A DNA stretch of 64,000 nt from positions 1-64,000 of the forward strand of contig CAIZZF010000005.1 of assembly GCA_903937385.1 (NCBI GenBank), read 5' to 3'. The stretch comes from an uncultured Holophagaceae bacterium. GTDB taxonomy: Bacteria > Acidobacteriota > Holophagae > Holophagales > Holophagaceae. Shown in pieces: positions 2,749 through 9,135 of the stretch (its first letter is position 1; the number at the start of each line of letters is the position of its first letter). The notes below the pieces were generated by a model. It did not search any database. It was not told where the DNA came from and saw only the letters and a program-made list of their open reading frames with translations. Position numbers and translations under genes: made by a program.

Positions 2749-3051
2749 ATGACCAAGAAACCGGCTGCCTCTCCCAAGTCGCTTGCCCTTGAGGGCGACC
2801 TGGATGTCTTCTCCGTTCACCAGCAGTGGGAGCAGGCGCAGCCCCTGATGGCCGCGGACTCGGGCACCGTCGAGGTGGATCTCTCCGGCATCGGGGACAT
2901 GGACCTCTCCGGCCTCCAGCTGCTCAGCGTCATGGACCGCGACCTCCGGGCCCGCGGCGTCGAGCTGAAGCTGACCGGCATCAAGGACGAGTGGAAGGCC
3001 CGCTTCCTCCCCCTGGGAATGGCAGGCTTGTTCGGCGGAGACCATCCATGA
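2749..3051 (+). CDS. STAS-domain protein in chemotaxis operon
   Basis: A 100-residue protein made of one STAS (anti-anti-sigma type) domain. The characteristic DLSGIGDMDLSGLQLL segment keeps a serine where SpoIIAA-like proteins are phosphorylated. The ATG at 2749 lies four bases after the cheW stop, and its stop codon overlaps the next start (ATGA at 3048-3051), so it belongs to the operon. STAS proteins in chemosensory clusters are known from several phyla, but the partner here is unknown. A role as a phosphorylatable adaptor is inferred. Confidence 0.85.
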   Translation: MTKKPAASPKSLALEGDLDVFSVHQQWEQAQPLMAADSGTVEVDLSGIGDMDLSGLQLLSVMDRDLRARGVELKLTGIKDEWKARFLPLGMAGLFGGDHP

Positions 3052-4115
3052 GCCGATGGTTCTCCAGCAGCGCCGCCTCGGGGCCCACCACCGACTCGGT
3101 CCCGTCTCTGACGGCGCCGGTCGGGGTGCCCCGGGTGGCCCTGCTCCGCATGGCTACCCGCGAAGCGGACATGCTGGAAAGCCAGGTGAACTTCCTGAAG
3201 CCAGAGCTGCTCCAGGCCGACAACCTGGTCGGCGAGGCCGCCCGCACCCTGGGCGAAGCCCTGCGGACTCTGGACCGCAGCGTGCAACACCAGCATCATC
3301 TGGCCTCTGAAATCCAGGTCGCCATGGCGGTCAGTATCGAGGGCGGCAGCAGCGGCGGCTTCGATGCCGTGAGCACGTCCATCATGGGTACCCTCGACGG
3401 CTTCGTGGTGAGCATGATGGACATCTCCAAGTCGTCCATGCAGCTGGTGGCCGAGGTCGAGGACATCCGGAAGCGCTCTGAGCAGATGGAGAACATGCTG
3501 GGCGAGCTGGCCGAGATCGCCGGCCGGACCCACCTGCTCTCCCTCAACGCCAACATTGAAGCGGCCCACGCCCGCAAGTTCGGCGCGGGCTTCGCCGTGG
3601 TGGCAGGCGAGGTCTCCAAGCTGGCCGACCGCAGCACCAGCCTCAGCGCCACCATCCAGGAGCAGATCAGCGGCACCCGCATGGCCCTGGAGCGCACGGA
3701 CTCCCACGTGCAGTCCATCGCCAGCAAGGATCTCAACATCGCCATCGCCTCCAAGGGCGAGTCCCTCCGACTGGTCCAGGCCCTGGAGGCCAGCAACCAG
3801 CGGGTGAAGGTGCTGGTCGGTGAGCTCGAGGCCAATGCCCGCATCATCGAAGACCAGGTCGGCCACGTGGTGCGCAGCCTGCAGTTCGAGGACCTCGTGC
3901 ACCAGACCCTGCAGGCCTGCCTGCGGGAGCTCGACAACCTCCTGGCCCAGGCGCTGGCCTGGCGCGCCTTCCAGCAGGCCCTGACTGCCGGGGGCCCGGA
4001 AGCTGCCGCCCTGGCCGAGTTGGACAACACCCTCGAGGGCATCGAAGCCAACCGGGTGCGCTTCAGCGCGGTGAAGAGCGACTCGCTCGCCGCCGGCGAT
4101 GTAGACCTTTTCTGA
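3048..4115 (+). CDS. soluble MCP-like protein with CheZ-like C-terminal motif
   Basis: A 355-residue cytoplasmic protein starting at the ATG overlapping the STAS stop. It has no signal peptide or membrane segment. Residues about 155-205 match an MCP hairpin tip (AGRTHLLSLNANIEAAHARK, then GFAVVAGEVSKLADRS), somewhat divergent from the consensus. The C-terminal helix contains QFEDLVHQ, with Asp282 and Gln286 spaced like the DxxxQ pair of CheZ phosphatases. It lies immediately upstream of cheY. It may be a soluble receptor, a CheY-P phosphatase, or both. The phosphatase idea is inference from the motif and the absence of cheZ, cheC or cheX in the window. Confidence 0.85.
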   Translation: MSRWFSSSAASGPTTDSVPSLTAPVGVPRVALLRMATREADMLESQVNFLKPELLQADNLVGEAARTLGEALRTLDRSVQHQHHLASEIQVAMAVSIEGGSSGGFDAVSTSIMGTLDGFVVSMMDISKSSMQLVAEVEDIRKRSEQMENMLGELAEIAGRTHLLSLNANIEAAHARKFGAGFAVVAGEVSKLADRSTSLSATIQEQISGTRMALERTDSHVQSIASKDLNIAIASKGESLRLVQALEASNQRVKVLVGELEANARIIEDQVGHVVRSLQFEDLVHQTLQACLRELDNLLAQALAWRAFQQALTAGGPEAAALAELDNTLEGIEANRVRFSAVKSDSLAAGDVDLF

Positions 4116-4130
4116 CCAGGAGCCGAAACG

Positions 4131-4493
4131 ATGAGCCCATGCATCCTCACGGTCGACGACTCGAGCACGATGCGCCAGATGATCACCTTCACGCTCAAGA
4201 GCGCGAACTTCGAGGTCGTCGAGGCGGGCGATGGGGTCGAGGCCCTGGAGGTCGCTCCGGGCAAGAAGCTGTCCCTCATCATCACTGACGTGAACATGCC
4301 GCGCATGGACGGCATCACCCTCGTGCAGCGGCTGCGCGCCCTCCCGGAGTTCAAGTTCACGCCCATCCTGGTGCTGACCACGGAATCGGACGCGAGCATG
4401 AAGATGAAGGGCAAGGAAGCTGGCGCCACGGGATGGATCGTCAAGCCCTTCAGCCCCGAGAAACTCCTTGAAGTGGTGAACAAAGTCATCTGA
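4131..4493 (+). CDS. cheY: chemotaxis response regulator CheY
   Basis: A 120-residue stand-alone receiver domain, presumably phosphorylated by the adjacent CheA to switch the output machinery. The acidic pair is Asp9/Asp10, the phosphoacceptor is Asp53 (ITDVNMPRMDG), the switch Thr is Thr83/84 and the conserved Lys is Lys105 in VKPF. A GGAG Shine-Dalgarno precedes the ATG. The start of cheA follows seven bases after the stop. Confidence 0.96.
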   Translation: MSPCILTVDDSSTMRQMITFTLKSANFEVVEAGDGVEALEVAPGKKLSLIITDVNMPRMDGITLVQRLRALPEFKFTPILVLTTESDASMKMKGKEAGATGWIVKPFSPEKLLEVVNKVI

Positions 4494-4500
4494 GGTTCCC

Positions 4501-6612
4501 GTGTCTGATCCCATGGCCCAATTCCGAACTGCCTTCTTCGAGGAGGCCACTGAGCTTGCGGACAGCATGGAGGCCACCCTGCTCTCCCTGGACCTGCAGG
4601 CCGTCGAGGTTGAGGACCTCCACACCCTGTTCCGGGCGGCGCACTCCATCAAGGGGAACGCCGGCACCTTCGGCTTTCCGGCCATCGCCTCCTTCACCCA
4701 CCAGCTGGAGAGCACCCTCGAACCCGTGCGCCAGGGCCAGCGGGCCATGACCTCAGACCTGCGGGAGCTGATCCTCCAGGGTGTGGACCTCATCCGCAGC
4801 CACCTGCACCACGCCCGCCACGACGAGCCCCTGCCCGAGAAAGAGCAGCAGGCCCAGACGCTCCTCGTGGTGAAGCTGAAGGAGGGCAAGGACGCGCCTG
4901 CCGCAGCCCCGGCCCCCGCCGCTGTGGAGGTCAAGGCCCCGCCCGCCGGCTCGAGCTCGGCCCATCGCGCCGGCACCGGCTTCAGCATCCGCTTCGAGGC
5001 GCCCCAGGACGCCTTCCGGCGCGGCGTGAACCTGGAGCGGCTCTTCCGCGACCTGGCCAAGCTGGGCACCATGCGCAGCTGGCCGGACCTCTCCCACCTG
5101 CCCGTCCTCGACCGCCTGGATCCCGAGGACTGCCACCTGGCCTGGGACATCCGGCTGGAGACCGCCCACCCGATGATGGATGTGGAAGAGGTCTTCGAGT
5201 TCGTGGCCGAAGGCGACAACCTGCGCATCCAGTCCCTGCCCGCCGAAGGCGCCGTCCCTCCCCTGGGCGACTACCTCCAGGTCGAGGCGAACGTCAGCCC
5301 CGCCGACATCCGCGAGGCCCTGGCCAAGCAGAAGCCCCTGGGCGAGATCCTGGTGGACATGGGCAAGGTCAAGCCCGAGGCCGTGGGCAAGGCCCTCGAG
5401 CAGCAGGCCAAGAAGCGCACCCAGTCCGAGGCCTCCACGGTCCGCGTGGCCACCGAGAAGATCGACCGCCTGGTGAACCTGGTGGGCGAGCTGGTCATCA
5501 CCCAGGCGATGCTGGCCCAGGCTTCCCTGCAGTCCAACTCCATGCAAGGCGAAGAACAGATGAACGCCGCCCTGCTCCAGCTCGACCGGCAGACCCGCGA
5601 GCTGCAGGAGCGCGTCATGGGCATCCGCATGGTGCCCGTGGACATGGTCTTCTCTCGCTTCCCGCGCATGGTCCACGAGCTGGGCCGCCAGCTGGGCAAG
5701 GACGTCGAGCTGACCATGGAAGGCCAGGCGACGGAGCTGGACAAGACCTTCATCGAGATGCTGGTGGATCCCCTGACCCACCTGGTCCGGAACTCCGTGG
5801 ACCACGGCATGGAAGAGAAGGAGTCCCGCCTTCAGTCCGGCAAGCCGACCATCGGCACCATCGCGCTCCGTGCCTCCAGCCGCGGCGGCCACATCTACAT
5901 CGAGATCAAGGACGACGGCCGGGGCCTGAACCGCGACAAGATCCTCCAGAAGGCCCTGGACCGGGGCATCCTCCCGCCCGGGTCCCACCCCTCGGATGAA
6001 GAGCTGCACCTGCTGATCTTCGAGCCGGGCTTCTCTACGGTCGAGCAGGTCTCGGATCTCTCGGGCCGCGGTGTGGGCATGGACGTGGTGCGCCAGAACG
6101 TGCGCGCCCTCGGCGGCCGCATCGAGGTGGAGAGCCAGATGGGCAAGGGCACCACGATCCGCCTGGTGCTGCCGCTCACCCTCGCCATCCTGGACGGCCT
6201 GACGGTGCGGGTCGCGGACGAGACCTACGTCTTCCCGCTGGCCTCGGTGCTGGAGAGCTTCCAGTGCAACGACGCCGACGTGCAGACCGTGAAGGGTGAC
6301 CGGGAAGTCATCAGCCTGCGCGGCGAGTTCATCCCCGTGGTGCGGCTCCAGCGCCTGCTGGCCCTGGGGTCCTGCCAGAACACCGGGCGGGCTCTGCTGG
6401 TGCTGGTGGAGTCCGAGGGCCGCCGCGCCGCCATGGCTGTGGACGAGCTGCTCGGCCAGCAGCAAGTGGTCATCAAGAGCCTGGAGACCCACTACAAGCG
6501 GGTCGAGGGCATCTCCGGCGCCACCATCCTGGGCGACGGCCGCGTGGCCCTCATCCTGGATGTATCCGGCCTCATGCGGCTGGAAGCTGGAGCGGCCACG
6601 GTGGAAGCATGA
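4501..6612 (+). CDS. cheA: chemotaxis histidine kinase CheA
   Basis: A 703-residue CheA. In order: an HPt (P1) domain with phosphorylatable His48 in AAHSIKGNAGTFGF; an alanine/proline linker; a substrate-domain-like segment around residues 155-250 (FRRGVNLERLFRDL...); a short LGEILVDMGKV helix segment; the P3 dimerisation helices from about residue 315; the ATPase domain with N-box LVRNSVDHGME (Asn431), DDGRGL and GRGVGMDVV; and a CheW-like P5 regulatory domain. The start is GTG at 4501; an in-frame ATG lies at 4513. The stop overlaps the cheR start. Confidence 0.96.
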   Translation: MSDPMAQFRTAFFEEATELADSMEATLLSLDLQAVEVEDLHTLFRAAHSIKGNAGTFGFPAIASFTHQLESTLEPVRQGQRAMTSDLRELILQGVDLIRSHLHHARHDEPLPEKEQQAQTLLVVKLKEGKDAPAAAPAPAAVEVKAPPAGSSSAHRAGTGFSIRFEAPQDAFRRGVNLERLFRDLAKLGTMRSWPDLSHLPVLDRLDPEDCHLAWDIRLETAHPMMDVEEVFEFVAEGDNLRIQSLPAEGAVPPLGDYLQVEANVSPADIREALAKQKPLGEILVDMGKVKPEAVGKALEQQAKKRTQSEASTVRVATEKIDRLVNLVGELVITQAMLAQASLQSNSMQGEEQMNAALLQLDRQTRELQERVMGIRMVPVDMVFSRFPRMVHELGRQLGKDVELTMEGQATELDKTFIEMLVDPLTHLVRNSVDHGMEEKESRLQSGKPTIGTIALRASSRGGHIYIEIKDDGRGLNRDKILQKALDRGILPPGSHPSDEELHLLIFEPGFSTVEQVSDLSGRGVGMDVVRQNVRALGGRIEVESQMGKGTTIRLVLPLTLAILDGLTVRVADETYVFPLASVLESFQCNDADVQTVKGDREVISLRGEFIPVVRLQRLLALGSCQNTGRALLVLVESEGRRAAMAVDELLGQQQVVIKSLETHYKRVEGISGATILGDGRVALILDVSGLMRLEAGAATVEA

Positions 6613-7475
6613 TTCGCCCGGCGGCCCCGATGGAACGGGATCCGCTGGCCCTGGACCGGGTGCCCCTGTCCCCGGCGACCTTCGACGCCCTGCGCAACCT
6701 GCTGCACGCCCACTCGGGCATCGCCCTGGCCCACCACAAGATCACCATGGTGCAGTCCCGCCTCGCCAAGCGGCTGCGGGCCCTGGGCCTCCGGTCCTAC
6801 GAGCAGTACCACGACCTCCTGCGCGATCCCCAGGCGGAGGAGTGGCCTGAGTTCGTCAACGCCCTCACCACCAACCTCACCAGCTTCTTCCGCGAGGGGC
6901 ACCACTTCACCCGGCTGGTCGAGCTCCTGAAGCCCGCCTACGCGGCCTCAAAGCGCATCCGCATCTGGAGCGCCGGCTGCTCCACCGGCGAGGAACCGTA
7001 CACCCTGGCCATGACCCTCACCAAGGCCTTCGGCGCCTCCGCCGCCATCCAGATCCTCGCCACGGACCTCGACACCGCCGTGCTGAACACCGCCTCCCGG
7101 GGCATCTATCCCATCGCGCGGGTGGAGAGCCTCGCCGACGAGTGGAAGCGCCTGGGCTTCCTGCGCGGCAAGGGCGAGCACCAGGACCAGGTGCGCATCC
7201 GCCCGGAGCTGCGGAAGCTCGTCACCTTCACGCAGATGAACCTGCTGGATGCCCAGTGGCCCCTGGAGGGCGGCCCCTTCCAGGCCATCTTCTGCCGCAA
7301 CGTGATGATCTACTTCGACAAGCCCACCCAGCGCGACCTGCTGCGGCGCTACCACGGGCTCCTGGAGCCGGAAGGCCTGCTCTTCGTGGGCCACTCCGAG
7401 TCCCTCCTGGACAACAGCCTGGGCTTCCAGTCCCTCGGGCAGACCATCTACCGGCGGAAGGGGGACCCGGCATGA
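6609..7475 (+). CDS. cheR: chemoreceptor glutamate methyltransferase CheR
   Basis: A 288-residue SAM-dependent methyltransferase that methylates receptor glutamates for adaptation. The N-terminal helical domain is followed by LTTNLTSFFREGHHF and the SAM-binding loop IWSAGCSTGEEPY. Further on, CRNVMIYFDKPTQ and GHSESL are typical of the CheR family. The ATG overlaps the cheA stop by four bases, and the cheR stop overlaps the cheD start in the same way. Its target is probably the MCP that opens the cluster, whose tail ends in QWESF. Confidence 0.96.
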   Translation: MIRPAAPMERDPLALDRVPLSPATFDALRNLLHAHSGIALAHHKITMVQSRLAKRLRALGLRSYEQYHDLLRDPQAEEWPEFVNALTTNLTSFFREGHHFTRLVELLKPAYAASKRIRIWSAGCSTGEEPYTLAMTLTKAFGASAAIQILATDLDTAVLNTASRGIYPIARVESLADEWKRLGFLRGKGEHQDQVRIRPELRKLVTFTQMNLLDAQWPLEGGPFQAIFCRNVMIYFDKPTQRDLLRRYHGLLEPEGLLFVGHSESLLDNSLGFQSLGQTIYRRKGDPA

Positions 7476-8083
7476 GTCCCTCCATTCCCATGGTGCATGG
7501 GCGGGCGTCGAAGTACCTCGACCGCCACTTCAACCGGCAGGCCATGAAGATCCTGCCGGGGGAGTTCTACGCCACGGACCAGGACGAGGTGATCGTGACC
7601 GTGCTGGGCAGCTGCGTGGCGGCCTGCCTGCTGGATCCCATCTCCATGGTGGGGGGCATGAACCACTTCATGCTGCCGGCCAAGCAGGGCGGAGCGGATC
7701 CGGACCGGTTCTTCGCGGCCCGCTACGGGGCGGCGGCCATGGAGTTCCTGATCAACAACCTGCTGCACCTGGGCGCCAAGCGGGACCGGCTGGTGGCCAA
7801 GGCCTTCGGCGGCGGCCGGGTGCTGCAGGGCATGACCACGGACATCGGCGGCCAGAACATCGACTTCGTGCGGCGGTTCCTGATGAACGAGGACATCCCC
7901 CTCTGGACCGAGGACATGGGGGGCATCTACCCCCGGAAGGTCTACTTCTTCCCCCACACGGGGCAGGTGCTCGTGAAGCGGATGGAGCGCACCCACAACG
8001 ACACGGTCATCACCCGCGAACTCAACTACCTCCATGAATTCGACCAAAACCCCATGGAGGGTGATGTGGAGCTGTTCTCATGA
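7472..8083 (+). CDS. cheD: chemoreceptor glutamine deamidase CheD
   Basis: A 203-residue CheD that deamidates receptor glutamines and in some species binds CheC. The catalytic Cys48 (VLGSCVAACL) and His65 (GGMNHFMLP) are present, along with the typical KAFGGGRVL segment. The ATG overlaps the cheR stop and the stop overlaps the cheB start. The 35-residue N-terminal extension before the first beta strand is a little longer than in minimal CheD proteins. Confidence 0.95.
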   Translation: MSPSIPMVHGRASKYLDRHFNRQAMKILPGEFYATDQDEVIVTVLGSCVAACLLDPISMVGGMNHFMLPAKQGGADPDRFFAARYGAAAMEFLINNLLHLGAKRDRLVAKAFGGGRVLQGMTTDIGGQNIDFVRRFLMNEDIPLWTEDMGGIYPRKVYFFPHTGQVLVKRMERTHNDTVITRELNYLHEFDQNPMEGDVELFS

Positions 8084-9135
8084 ACACAGAAAAGAAGCGG
8101 GTGCTCATCGTCGATGACAGCGCCCTGGTGCGCCAGGTGCTGAAGAACATCCTCACGCGGCACCCGAACCTGGAAGTCGTGGGGATCGCCAAAGATCCCT
8201 ACGAGGCCCGCGAGCGCGTCCGGGAGCTCAACCCGGATGTCCTCACCCTGGATGTCGAGATGCCTCGCATGGACGGCATCACCTTCCTGAGCAAGCTCAT
8301 GAAGGCCCATCCCATGCCCGTGGTGATGCTCTCCAGCCTCACAGCCAAGGGCACCTCCACGGCCCTGGACGCCCTGGACCTGGGCGCCATCGATGTCATC
8401 GGCAAGCCGGCCCTGGACCAGGCCACCGGCCTGGAGGCCATGGGCACCGAGATCGCCGAGACGGTCTACGCCGCCTCCCTGGCCCACGTCACCGGCCGGC
8501 GGGCCCCGGCCCATGACGCCAGCACGGCCCTGGCACCCCTCGCCCAGCGCGCGAGGGCCGGGCGCGCCCTCATCGCCATCGGCTCCAGCACCGGCGGCAC
8601 CGAGGCGCTGCGCCAGGTCTTCGAGGCCATCCCCGAGAACCTGCCTCCCATCGTCGTGGTGCAGCACATGCTCCCGGGCTTCACCGCGGCCTTCGCCGAG
8701 CGCCTGAACCGCAGCAGCCGGGCCCGGGTGAAGGTGGCCCAGGAGGGCGAGACCCTGAAGCCGGGCACGGTCTACCTCGCGCCCAACGACATCCACCTCA
8801 CGGTCGCCCGGGGCGGCGCGGGCATGGTGGCCGTGTTGGAGGGCCAGGAGCGGGTCTCCCGGCACCTGCCCTCGGTCGACGTCCTCTTCCACTCGGTCGC
8901 CGAGGCCTGCGGGTCCCACGCCATGGGGGTCATCCTCACCGGCATGGGCGAGGACGGTGCCCGGGGCCTGCTGCAGATGCGCCAGAAGGGCGCGCGCACC
9001 CTGGGCCAGGATGAGGCCAGCTGCGTGGTCTACGGCATGCCGCGCGTGGCCTACCTGCGCGGTGCCGTGGAGGAGCAGGCGCCCCTGGGCGCCATCCCCG
9101 GCCATCTCGTCGCCTGGTGCGGGCGCGAAGCCTGA
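8080..9135 (+). CDS. cheB: chemotaxis methylesterase/deamidase CheB
   Basis: A 351-residue response-regulator methylesterase that reverses CheR methylation. The receiver domain has phosphoacceptor Asp58 (LDVEMPRMDG). The C-terminal esterase has the catalytic triad Ser170 (GSSTGGTEA), His196 (VVQHMLPGF) and Asp292 (GMGEDGARG). It begins at an ATG overlapping the cheD stop. It closes the core adaptation set and is followed after 39 bases by the haem-type hybrid kinase. Confidence 0.96.
   Translation: MNTEKKRVLIVDDSALVRQVLKNILTRHPNLEVVGIAKDPYEARERVRELNPDVLTLDVEMPRMDGITFLSKLMKAHPMPVVMLSSLTAKGTSTALDALDLGAIDVIGKPALDQATGLEAMGTEIAETVYAASLAHVTGRRAPAHDASTALAPLAQRARAGRALIAIGSSTGGTEALRQVFEAIPENLPPIVVVQHMLPGFTAAFAERLNRSSRARVKVAQEGETLKPGTVYLAPNDIHLTVARGGAGMVAVLEGQERVSRHLPSVDVLFHSVAEACGSHAMGVILTGMGEDGARGLLQMRQKGARTLGQDEASCVVYGMPRVAYLRGAVEEQAPLGAIPGHLVAWCGREA

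Follow-up and report, generated by a model that had tools for sequence, protein, structure and literature searches.

A candidate CheZ-type CheY-P phosphatase embedded in a receptor-like protein of Holophagaceae

The che cluster and its MCP-like protein

The window, a stretch of 64,000 nucleotides from the genome of an uncultured Holophagaceae bacterium (Acidobacteriota), carries a full che cluster encoding an MCP, CheW, a STAS-domain protein, the MCP-like protein P0001, CheY, CheA, CheR, CheD and CheB, all on the forward strand. The main MCP (12-2165), recognized from Pfam and sequence, contains five HAMP_2 repeats, opens the contig, whose edge probably truncates it, and terminates in QWESF, a pentapeptide of the type that tethers CheR. 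It is followed by cheW (2244-2744; Pfam CheW, 9.7e-38) and, directly upstream of P0001, by the gene for the STAS-domain protein (2749-3051; Pfam STAS_2, 7.5e-13). Downstream of P0001 are cheY (4131-4493; Pfam Response_reg, 1.2e-28), whose product is the probable substrate, cheA (4501-6612; Pfam Hpt, H-kinase_dim, HATPase_c and CheW), cheR (6609-7475), cheD (7472-8083; Pfam CheD, 5.2e-29) and cheB (8080-9135); for cheR and cheB the assignment rests on sequence and operon position, with reference to the orthologous operon of another genome (G205).

The P0001 gene (3048-4115, forward strand) encodes 355 amino acids, and Pfam, AF2 and fold matching together describe a signalling hairpin with a C-terminal extension. 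Residues 131-264 match Pfam MCPsignal (2.8e-18, 66.8 bits; cut-off 34.6), and this signalling domain with its hairpin tip places P0001 among the MCPs. The tip, residues 157-189 (3516-3614, forward strand; IAGRTHLLSLNANIEAAHARKFGAGFAVVAGEV), is the most conserved block of the family. Residues 1-130 match no Pfam domain, including HAMP and ligand-binding or sensor domains, the protein has no CheC or CheX match in Pfam, and no membrane-spanning region was seen by eye. Other MCPs, such as FrzCD, TlpT and further soluble MCPs, are likewise cytoplasmic, and are not known to carry a CheZ motif. The AF2 model of the P0001 monomer is a long helical hairpin (pLDDT 69, pTM 0.40) whose best fold match is the cytoplasmic domain of a T. 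maritima MCP (2ch7). With this monomer model of moderate confidence, the fold search returned only MCPs and generic coiled coils, CheZ being absent from the list; the MCP fold match has no bearing on phosphatase function, and the absence of CheZ excludes nothing.

The earlier note on this DNA observed that cheZ, cheC and cheX are missing from the cluster, and Pfam indeed finds none of them on the contig of the window (C5). The argument that P0001 must fill this gap is not supported, because the genome holds two CheZ proteins, a CheW-CheZ fusion and a CheX, all on other contigs and partly in another che cluster. The first CheZ gene (C20:91129-91791) scores 33.4 bits, above the Pfam cut-off, and its product (L001:1471-2460, reverse strand) has an N-terminal HAMP domain (Pfam HAMP 1.2e-8, CheZ 1.4e-8). 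The second dedicated CheZ (C26:329273; L087:9223-9822, reverse strand) scores 21.7 bits and begins with MDQSEIDALLAGG, which resembles the N-terminal CheY-binding peptide of FliM. The CheX lies at C29:3893 (85.9 bits). These CheZ and CheX proteins rule out P0001 as the only phosphatase of the cell. Of the two findings that together would, according to the note, count against its proposal, namely a clear cheZ or cheC elsewhere and a lack of contact with CheY, the genome search yielded the first, in the form of CheZ. Contig C26 encodes the one other CheA of the genome, together with a CheY and a CheZ of that system, a multi-CheW protein and the CheW-CheZ-like fusion. The fusion gene, downstream of this second CheA near position 324643 (L087:4572-5489, reverse strand), encodes a CheW domain followed by the CheZ-like helix LMQFQDIARQKLERV. 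P0001 alone among CheZ-type proteins is encoded with the CheA of the window, while the C26 system has both CheZ and CheW-CheZ.

The CheZ-type motif and its relation to CheZ

The CheZ-type motif of P0001, QFEDLVHQ (residues 279-286; 3882-3905, forward strand; within LQFEDLVHQ), was recognized from its invariance and from its hhalign register with CheZ. Asp282 (codon 3891-3893) and Gln286 (codon 3903-3905) stand exactly where the earlier note had placed them. Phe280, Glu281, Asp282 and Gln286 agree with the F-Q-D-x-x-x-Q catalytic context of CheZ; Phe, Asp and Gln are invariant, and the residue before Asp is Glu instead of Gln in most P0001 orthologues and Gln in L032 and in distant members.

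An Asp followed by three residues and a Gln is by itself a weak motif. Searched as DNA, QF[QE]D...Q gave six matches in 3.7 Mb, four of them chemotaxis proteins, versus none for a reversed control. Across 149 genomes of the phylum, the pattern also matches unrelated proteins, so that without the MCP tip it is not diagnostic. Among about 30 homologues of P0001, selected by whole-protein similarity and not by the motif, Asp and Gln are kept throughout, at identities down to 32%. An alignment of 24 sequences gave the block 271-289 a mean entropy of 0.21, with 12 of 19 columns invariant, versus about 0.7-1.4 in the C-terminal helix that flanks it; within P0001 the block ranks second in conservation, behind the MCP tip. 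In a diverse MCP-like set from two phyla, including Gammaproteobacteria (two plasmids), invariance is confined to the residues Q, F, D and Q, at identities around the motif as low as 14-18%. Because a further set, of 41 MCP-type genes, was selected to hold the motif and the tip, invariance is argued only from the whole-protein homologues and more weakly from the diverse set. A chance origin of the motif in P0001 was rejected on the basis of conservation and synteny.

Profile comparisons point to a possible link of this segment to CheZ, although P0001 does not match the Pfam CheZ model (PF04344) even at an E value of 10 and stays below its cut-off. When successive segments of P0001 were compared with the CheZ proteins found in its own bacterial family, those that contain the motif reached probabilities of 66%, 47% and 28%, and all others less than 2%. 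The alignment of diverse MCP-type proteins matched these CheZ proteins with 91.7% probability (E 8e-7), with both D and Q aligned to their CheZ counterparts. This match fell to 0.6% when the eight motif columns were masked, and to 39% when D and Q alone were; the CheZ signal is therefore the motif. Segments of canonical MCPs reached up to 27% against the CheZ profile. Given both controls, the CheZ homology seen for P0001 itself is confined to the motif. The match to E. coli-type, or proteobacterial, CheZ is not significant (3.7-5%), though D and Q align. In a search of 297 genomes with a profile of the MCP-type segment, the next matches after its own family included dedicated CheZ and CheW-CheZ proteins, and in the genome under study the matches were P0001, CheZ and CheW-CheZ only. 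When PDB sequences were searched, the motif profiles missed CheZ, but so did a genuine CheZ profile, which makes the result uninformative.

The two families meet in a bridge protein from another Acidobacteriota family (L203), which combines an MCP tip with QFQDITRQKIEHV; within the latter, QFQDITRQKIE is found verbatim in CheZ proteins of Holophagaceae. L203 matches both Pfam models (MCPsignal, 3.5e-29; CheZ, 1.2e-4, 22.5 bits), its CheZ score being below the Pfam cut-off of 30.7 and on par with that of the second dedicated CheZ of the genome under study (21.7 bits).

These comparisons bear on the idea that P0001 is an ordinary soluble receptor or adaptor, in which the QFxDxxxQ block serves as a structural or coupling element and resembles CheZ by likeness only. 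Such a role would be consistent with a CheZ match carried by eight columns, with a fold that is simply MCP-like and with the failure of P0001 to qualify as a Pfam CheZ. Yet the same block is CheZ in two stand-alone proteins and in the CheW fusion of this very genome, L203 belongs by its matches to the MCP and CheZ families alike, and QF[QE]D...Q is absent from all further MCPs with a readable sequence in this genome. An ordinary receptor or adaptor is improbable on balance.

Linkage to cheY, the partner CheY and the C-terminal tail

The start of cheY, at 4131, lies 15 bases past the stop codon of P0001, the distance that had been claimed. Among the 41 MCP-type genes (the set selected by motif and tip), cheY is the next downstream gene in 39, and in one of the two exceptions (L025), an assembly gap separates the gene from a CheY in the same reading frame. 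The order STAS-MCPtype-CheY-CheA is found in the window and in G205 and G312, which represent other Acidobacteriota families, and the order MCPtype-CheY-STAS-CheA in G035 and G065 (Holophagaceae), Pseudomonas sp. HR96 and Aeromonas sp. BC14. Plasmids of the last two strains (L164, L165) carry MCPtype-CheY-STAS-CheA-MCP-CheW operons that also hold CheR, plus CheD/CheB where read. A tblastn search of plasmids with the acidobacterial C-terminal half gave no match, a second MCP-type query led to these two gammaproteobacterial operons, and the Aeromonas MCP-type protein found no further plasmid records.

The target of a phosphatase might also be another receiver domain, for example that of CheB or of the receiver protein of STAS-linked paralogues. 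In three such paralogues (G034, G019 and G047), the next gene is a STAS gene and not cheY, and in G034 and G019 this STAS gene is itself followed by a gene for a receiver-domain protein. However, a stand-alone CheY is the nearest receiver in most cases, which makes a different target very unlikely.

The CheY of the window has Ala at the position equivalent to Lys92 of E. coli CheY and Lys at that equivalent to Ile95. In E. coli, Asp143 of CheZ reportedly contacts CheY Lys92. In the genomes examined, this Lys92 is kept in all five of the CheY proteins that adjoin a dedicated CheZ and is found in none that adjoin MCP-type proteins, where Lys95 is present in 33 of 37 sequences, a set that includes a few unrelated receiver domains. 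If the mechanism is right, the partner CheY proteins, which do not have Lys92, must be contacted in another way, and the change from Lys92 to Lys95 is a possible specificity switch. The best PDB match of the CheY of the window is V. cholerae CheY4 (4h60), whose cluster is without cheZ and whose binding of CheZ was argued to be inefficient (PMC3774744).

P0001 ends in a conserved tail, GDVDLF (residues 350-355; 4095-4112, forward strand), which ends 69 residues past Gln286 and follows a pattern common to the MCP-type members, [GSNA][DE][VIL][TDE][LF]F at 60-81 residues past Gln. Similar spacing is seen in CheZ, where the tail of the E. coli protein lies 67 residues past Gln147 and proteobacterial CheZ proteins end in VDDLL..LGF 66-79 residues past their Gln; in both groups the tail is acidic and hydrophobic and ends in Phe. 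It was not found in the MCPs that could be read elsewhere in the genome. Paralogous MCP-type proteins at L201 (815-1960, reverse strand), L202 and L204 combine LQFEDMVRQ with the ending SGDVELF; a STAS gene follows each, and a receiver-domain protein follows as well at L201 and L202. The tail was considered as a CheR pentapeptide and rejected, having Val in place of the aromatic residue, in a cluster whose main MCP has a tether of that type. The CheD of the window ends in GDVELFS, nearly the same as GDVDLF, and the CheD of G205 in GDITLF. Because CheD also carries it, the tail of P0001 need not bind CheY, and the two proteins may possibly share a docking partner other than CheY.

The main rival to phosphatase activity is docking without catalysis, in which helix and tail, acting as scaffold or sink, would hold CheY or CheY-P at the receptor array and leave the phosphate intact. 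Linkage to cheY and a conserved tail require binding alone, the partner CheY is without Lys92, a CheZ contact, and its best PDB match, CheY4, is the protein argued to be inefficient in CheZ binding (PMC3774744). Against this, an invariant Gln four residues past the Asp, the catalytic pair in CheZ, is unneeded for pure binding, and L203 has the full CheZ string. A docking-only role is unlikely, though less so than that of an ordinary receptor.

A proposed receptor-embedded phosphatase and its relatives

It is proposed, with a probability of roughly 0.6, that P0001 is a receptor-embedded CheZ-type CheY-P phosphatase for the CheA and CheY of its own cluster, a CheZ-type active-site helix being borne on the descending helix of an MCP. 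Support comes from the motif and its invariance, the register with CheZ, the bridge protein, the linkage to cheY and the CheZ-like spacing of the tail. The earlier note's proposal, a receptor-like coiled coil combined with CheY-P dephosphorylation, is supported in part, by the conservation of the motif in register, by L203 and by a cheY linkage that crosses phyla; the gap-filling argument is not. In the mechanism envisaged, the MCP tip could dock the protein to CheA/CheW, the acidic and hydrophobic tail GDVDLF would dock CheY-P, Asp282 would anchor CheY as Asp143 does in CheZ, and Gln286 would orient the attacking water as does Gln147; the receptor array might control the activity. P0001 resembles CheZ (PF04344; E. 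coli CheZ, PDB 1KMI) in having Asp-x-x-x-Gln on a long helix in an FQD/FED context, a helical hairpin and a gene beside cheY, but differs in that the motif resides in an MCP hairpin with a signalling tip, in its lack of a Pfam CheZ match and in a partner CheY without Lys92. A precedent for overlooked DxxxQ phosphatases is CheT of Sinorhizobium and Agrobacterium, a CheZ-like protein that generic searches missed and that acts on one of two CheY proteins; unlike P0001, it is a stand-alone protein and not an MCP (PMC12654446).

Among described receptors, P0001 probably belongs with the McpA-like proteins of the F7 and F9 systems that are without cheZ, to judge from their described C-terminus. McpA-like receptors of F7 systems (P. 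aeruginosa McpA/CttP, PA0180; V. cholerae VCA1088) are, like P0001, MCPs of an unusual class in or beside a che cluster without cheZ, with a highly conserved C-terminal extension that has Val at its second position and is not a CheR pentapeptide (PMC7184735). Likewise, the P0001 end DVDLF does not conform to x-[HFYW]-x-x-[HFYW] and has Val second, and the MCP-type tails described above fit the account of the McpA-like C-terminus by Ortega et al. (2020). That study described this C-terminus as strikingly conserved and of unclear role, the receptors as dispensable for the F7 array, and early F7 systems as having their own cheY and no cheZ (PMC7184735). Unlike McpA, P0001 has no membrane-spanning region by eye. 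VC1394 of the V. cholerae F9 system, of which 'little is known', has the same topology as McpA-like receptors (PMC7534058). A CheZ-type motif is predicted in PA0180, VCA1088 and VC1394. More tentatively, and with the odds somewhat against so broad a claim, the McpA-like F7/F9 'receptors' and the acidobacterial proteins could be primarily array-associated CheY-P phosphatases, built from an MCP hairpin, a CheZ helix and a CheY-docking tail, whose partner CheY proteins use Lys95 for Lys92. Clusters of the F7/F9 type with their own CheY but no cheZ would be explained if the McpA-like proteins are phosphatases, and the CheZ-type motif and docking tail would then account for the missing cheZ and the conserved McpA C-terminus by one mechanism.

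We came across no description of an MCP with a CheZ motif in our searches of the open-access literature. Within one genome, the CheZ helix appears as a module in four settings: on its own, after a HAMP domain, after CheW and within an MCP. MCP-type 'receptors' encoded beside cheY may, on the strength of these sequence comparisons, be overlooked off-switches for CheY. If so, the annotation 'methyl-accepting chemotaxis protein' beside cheY would need correction in at least two phyla.
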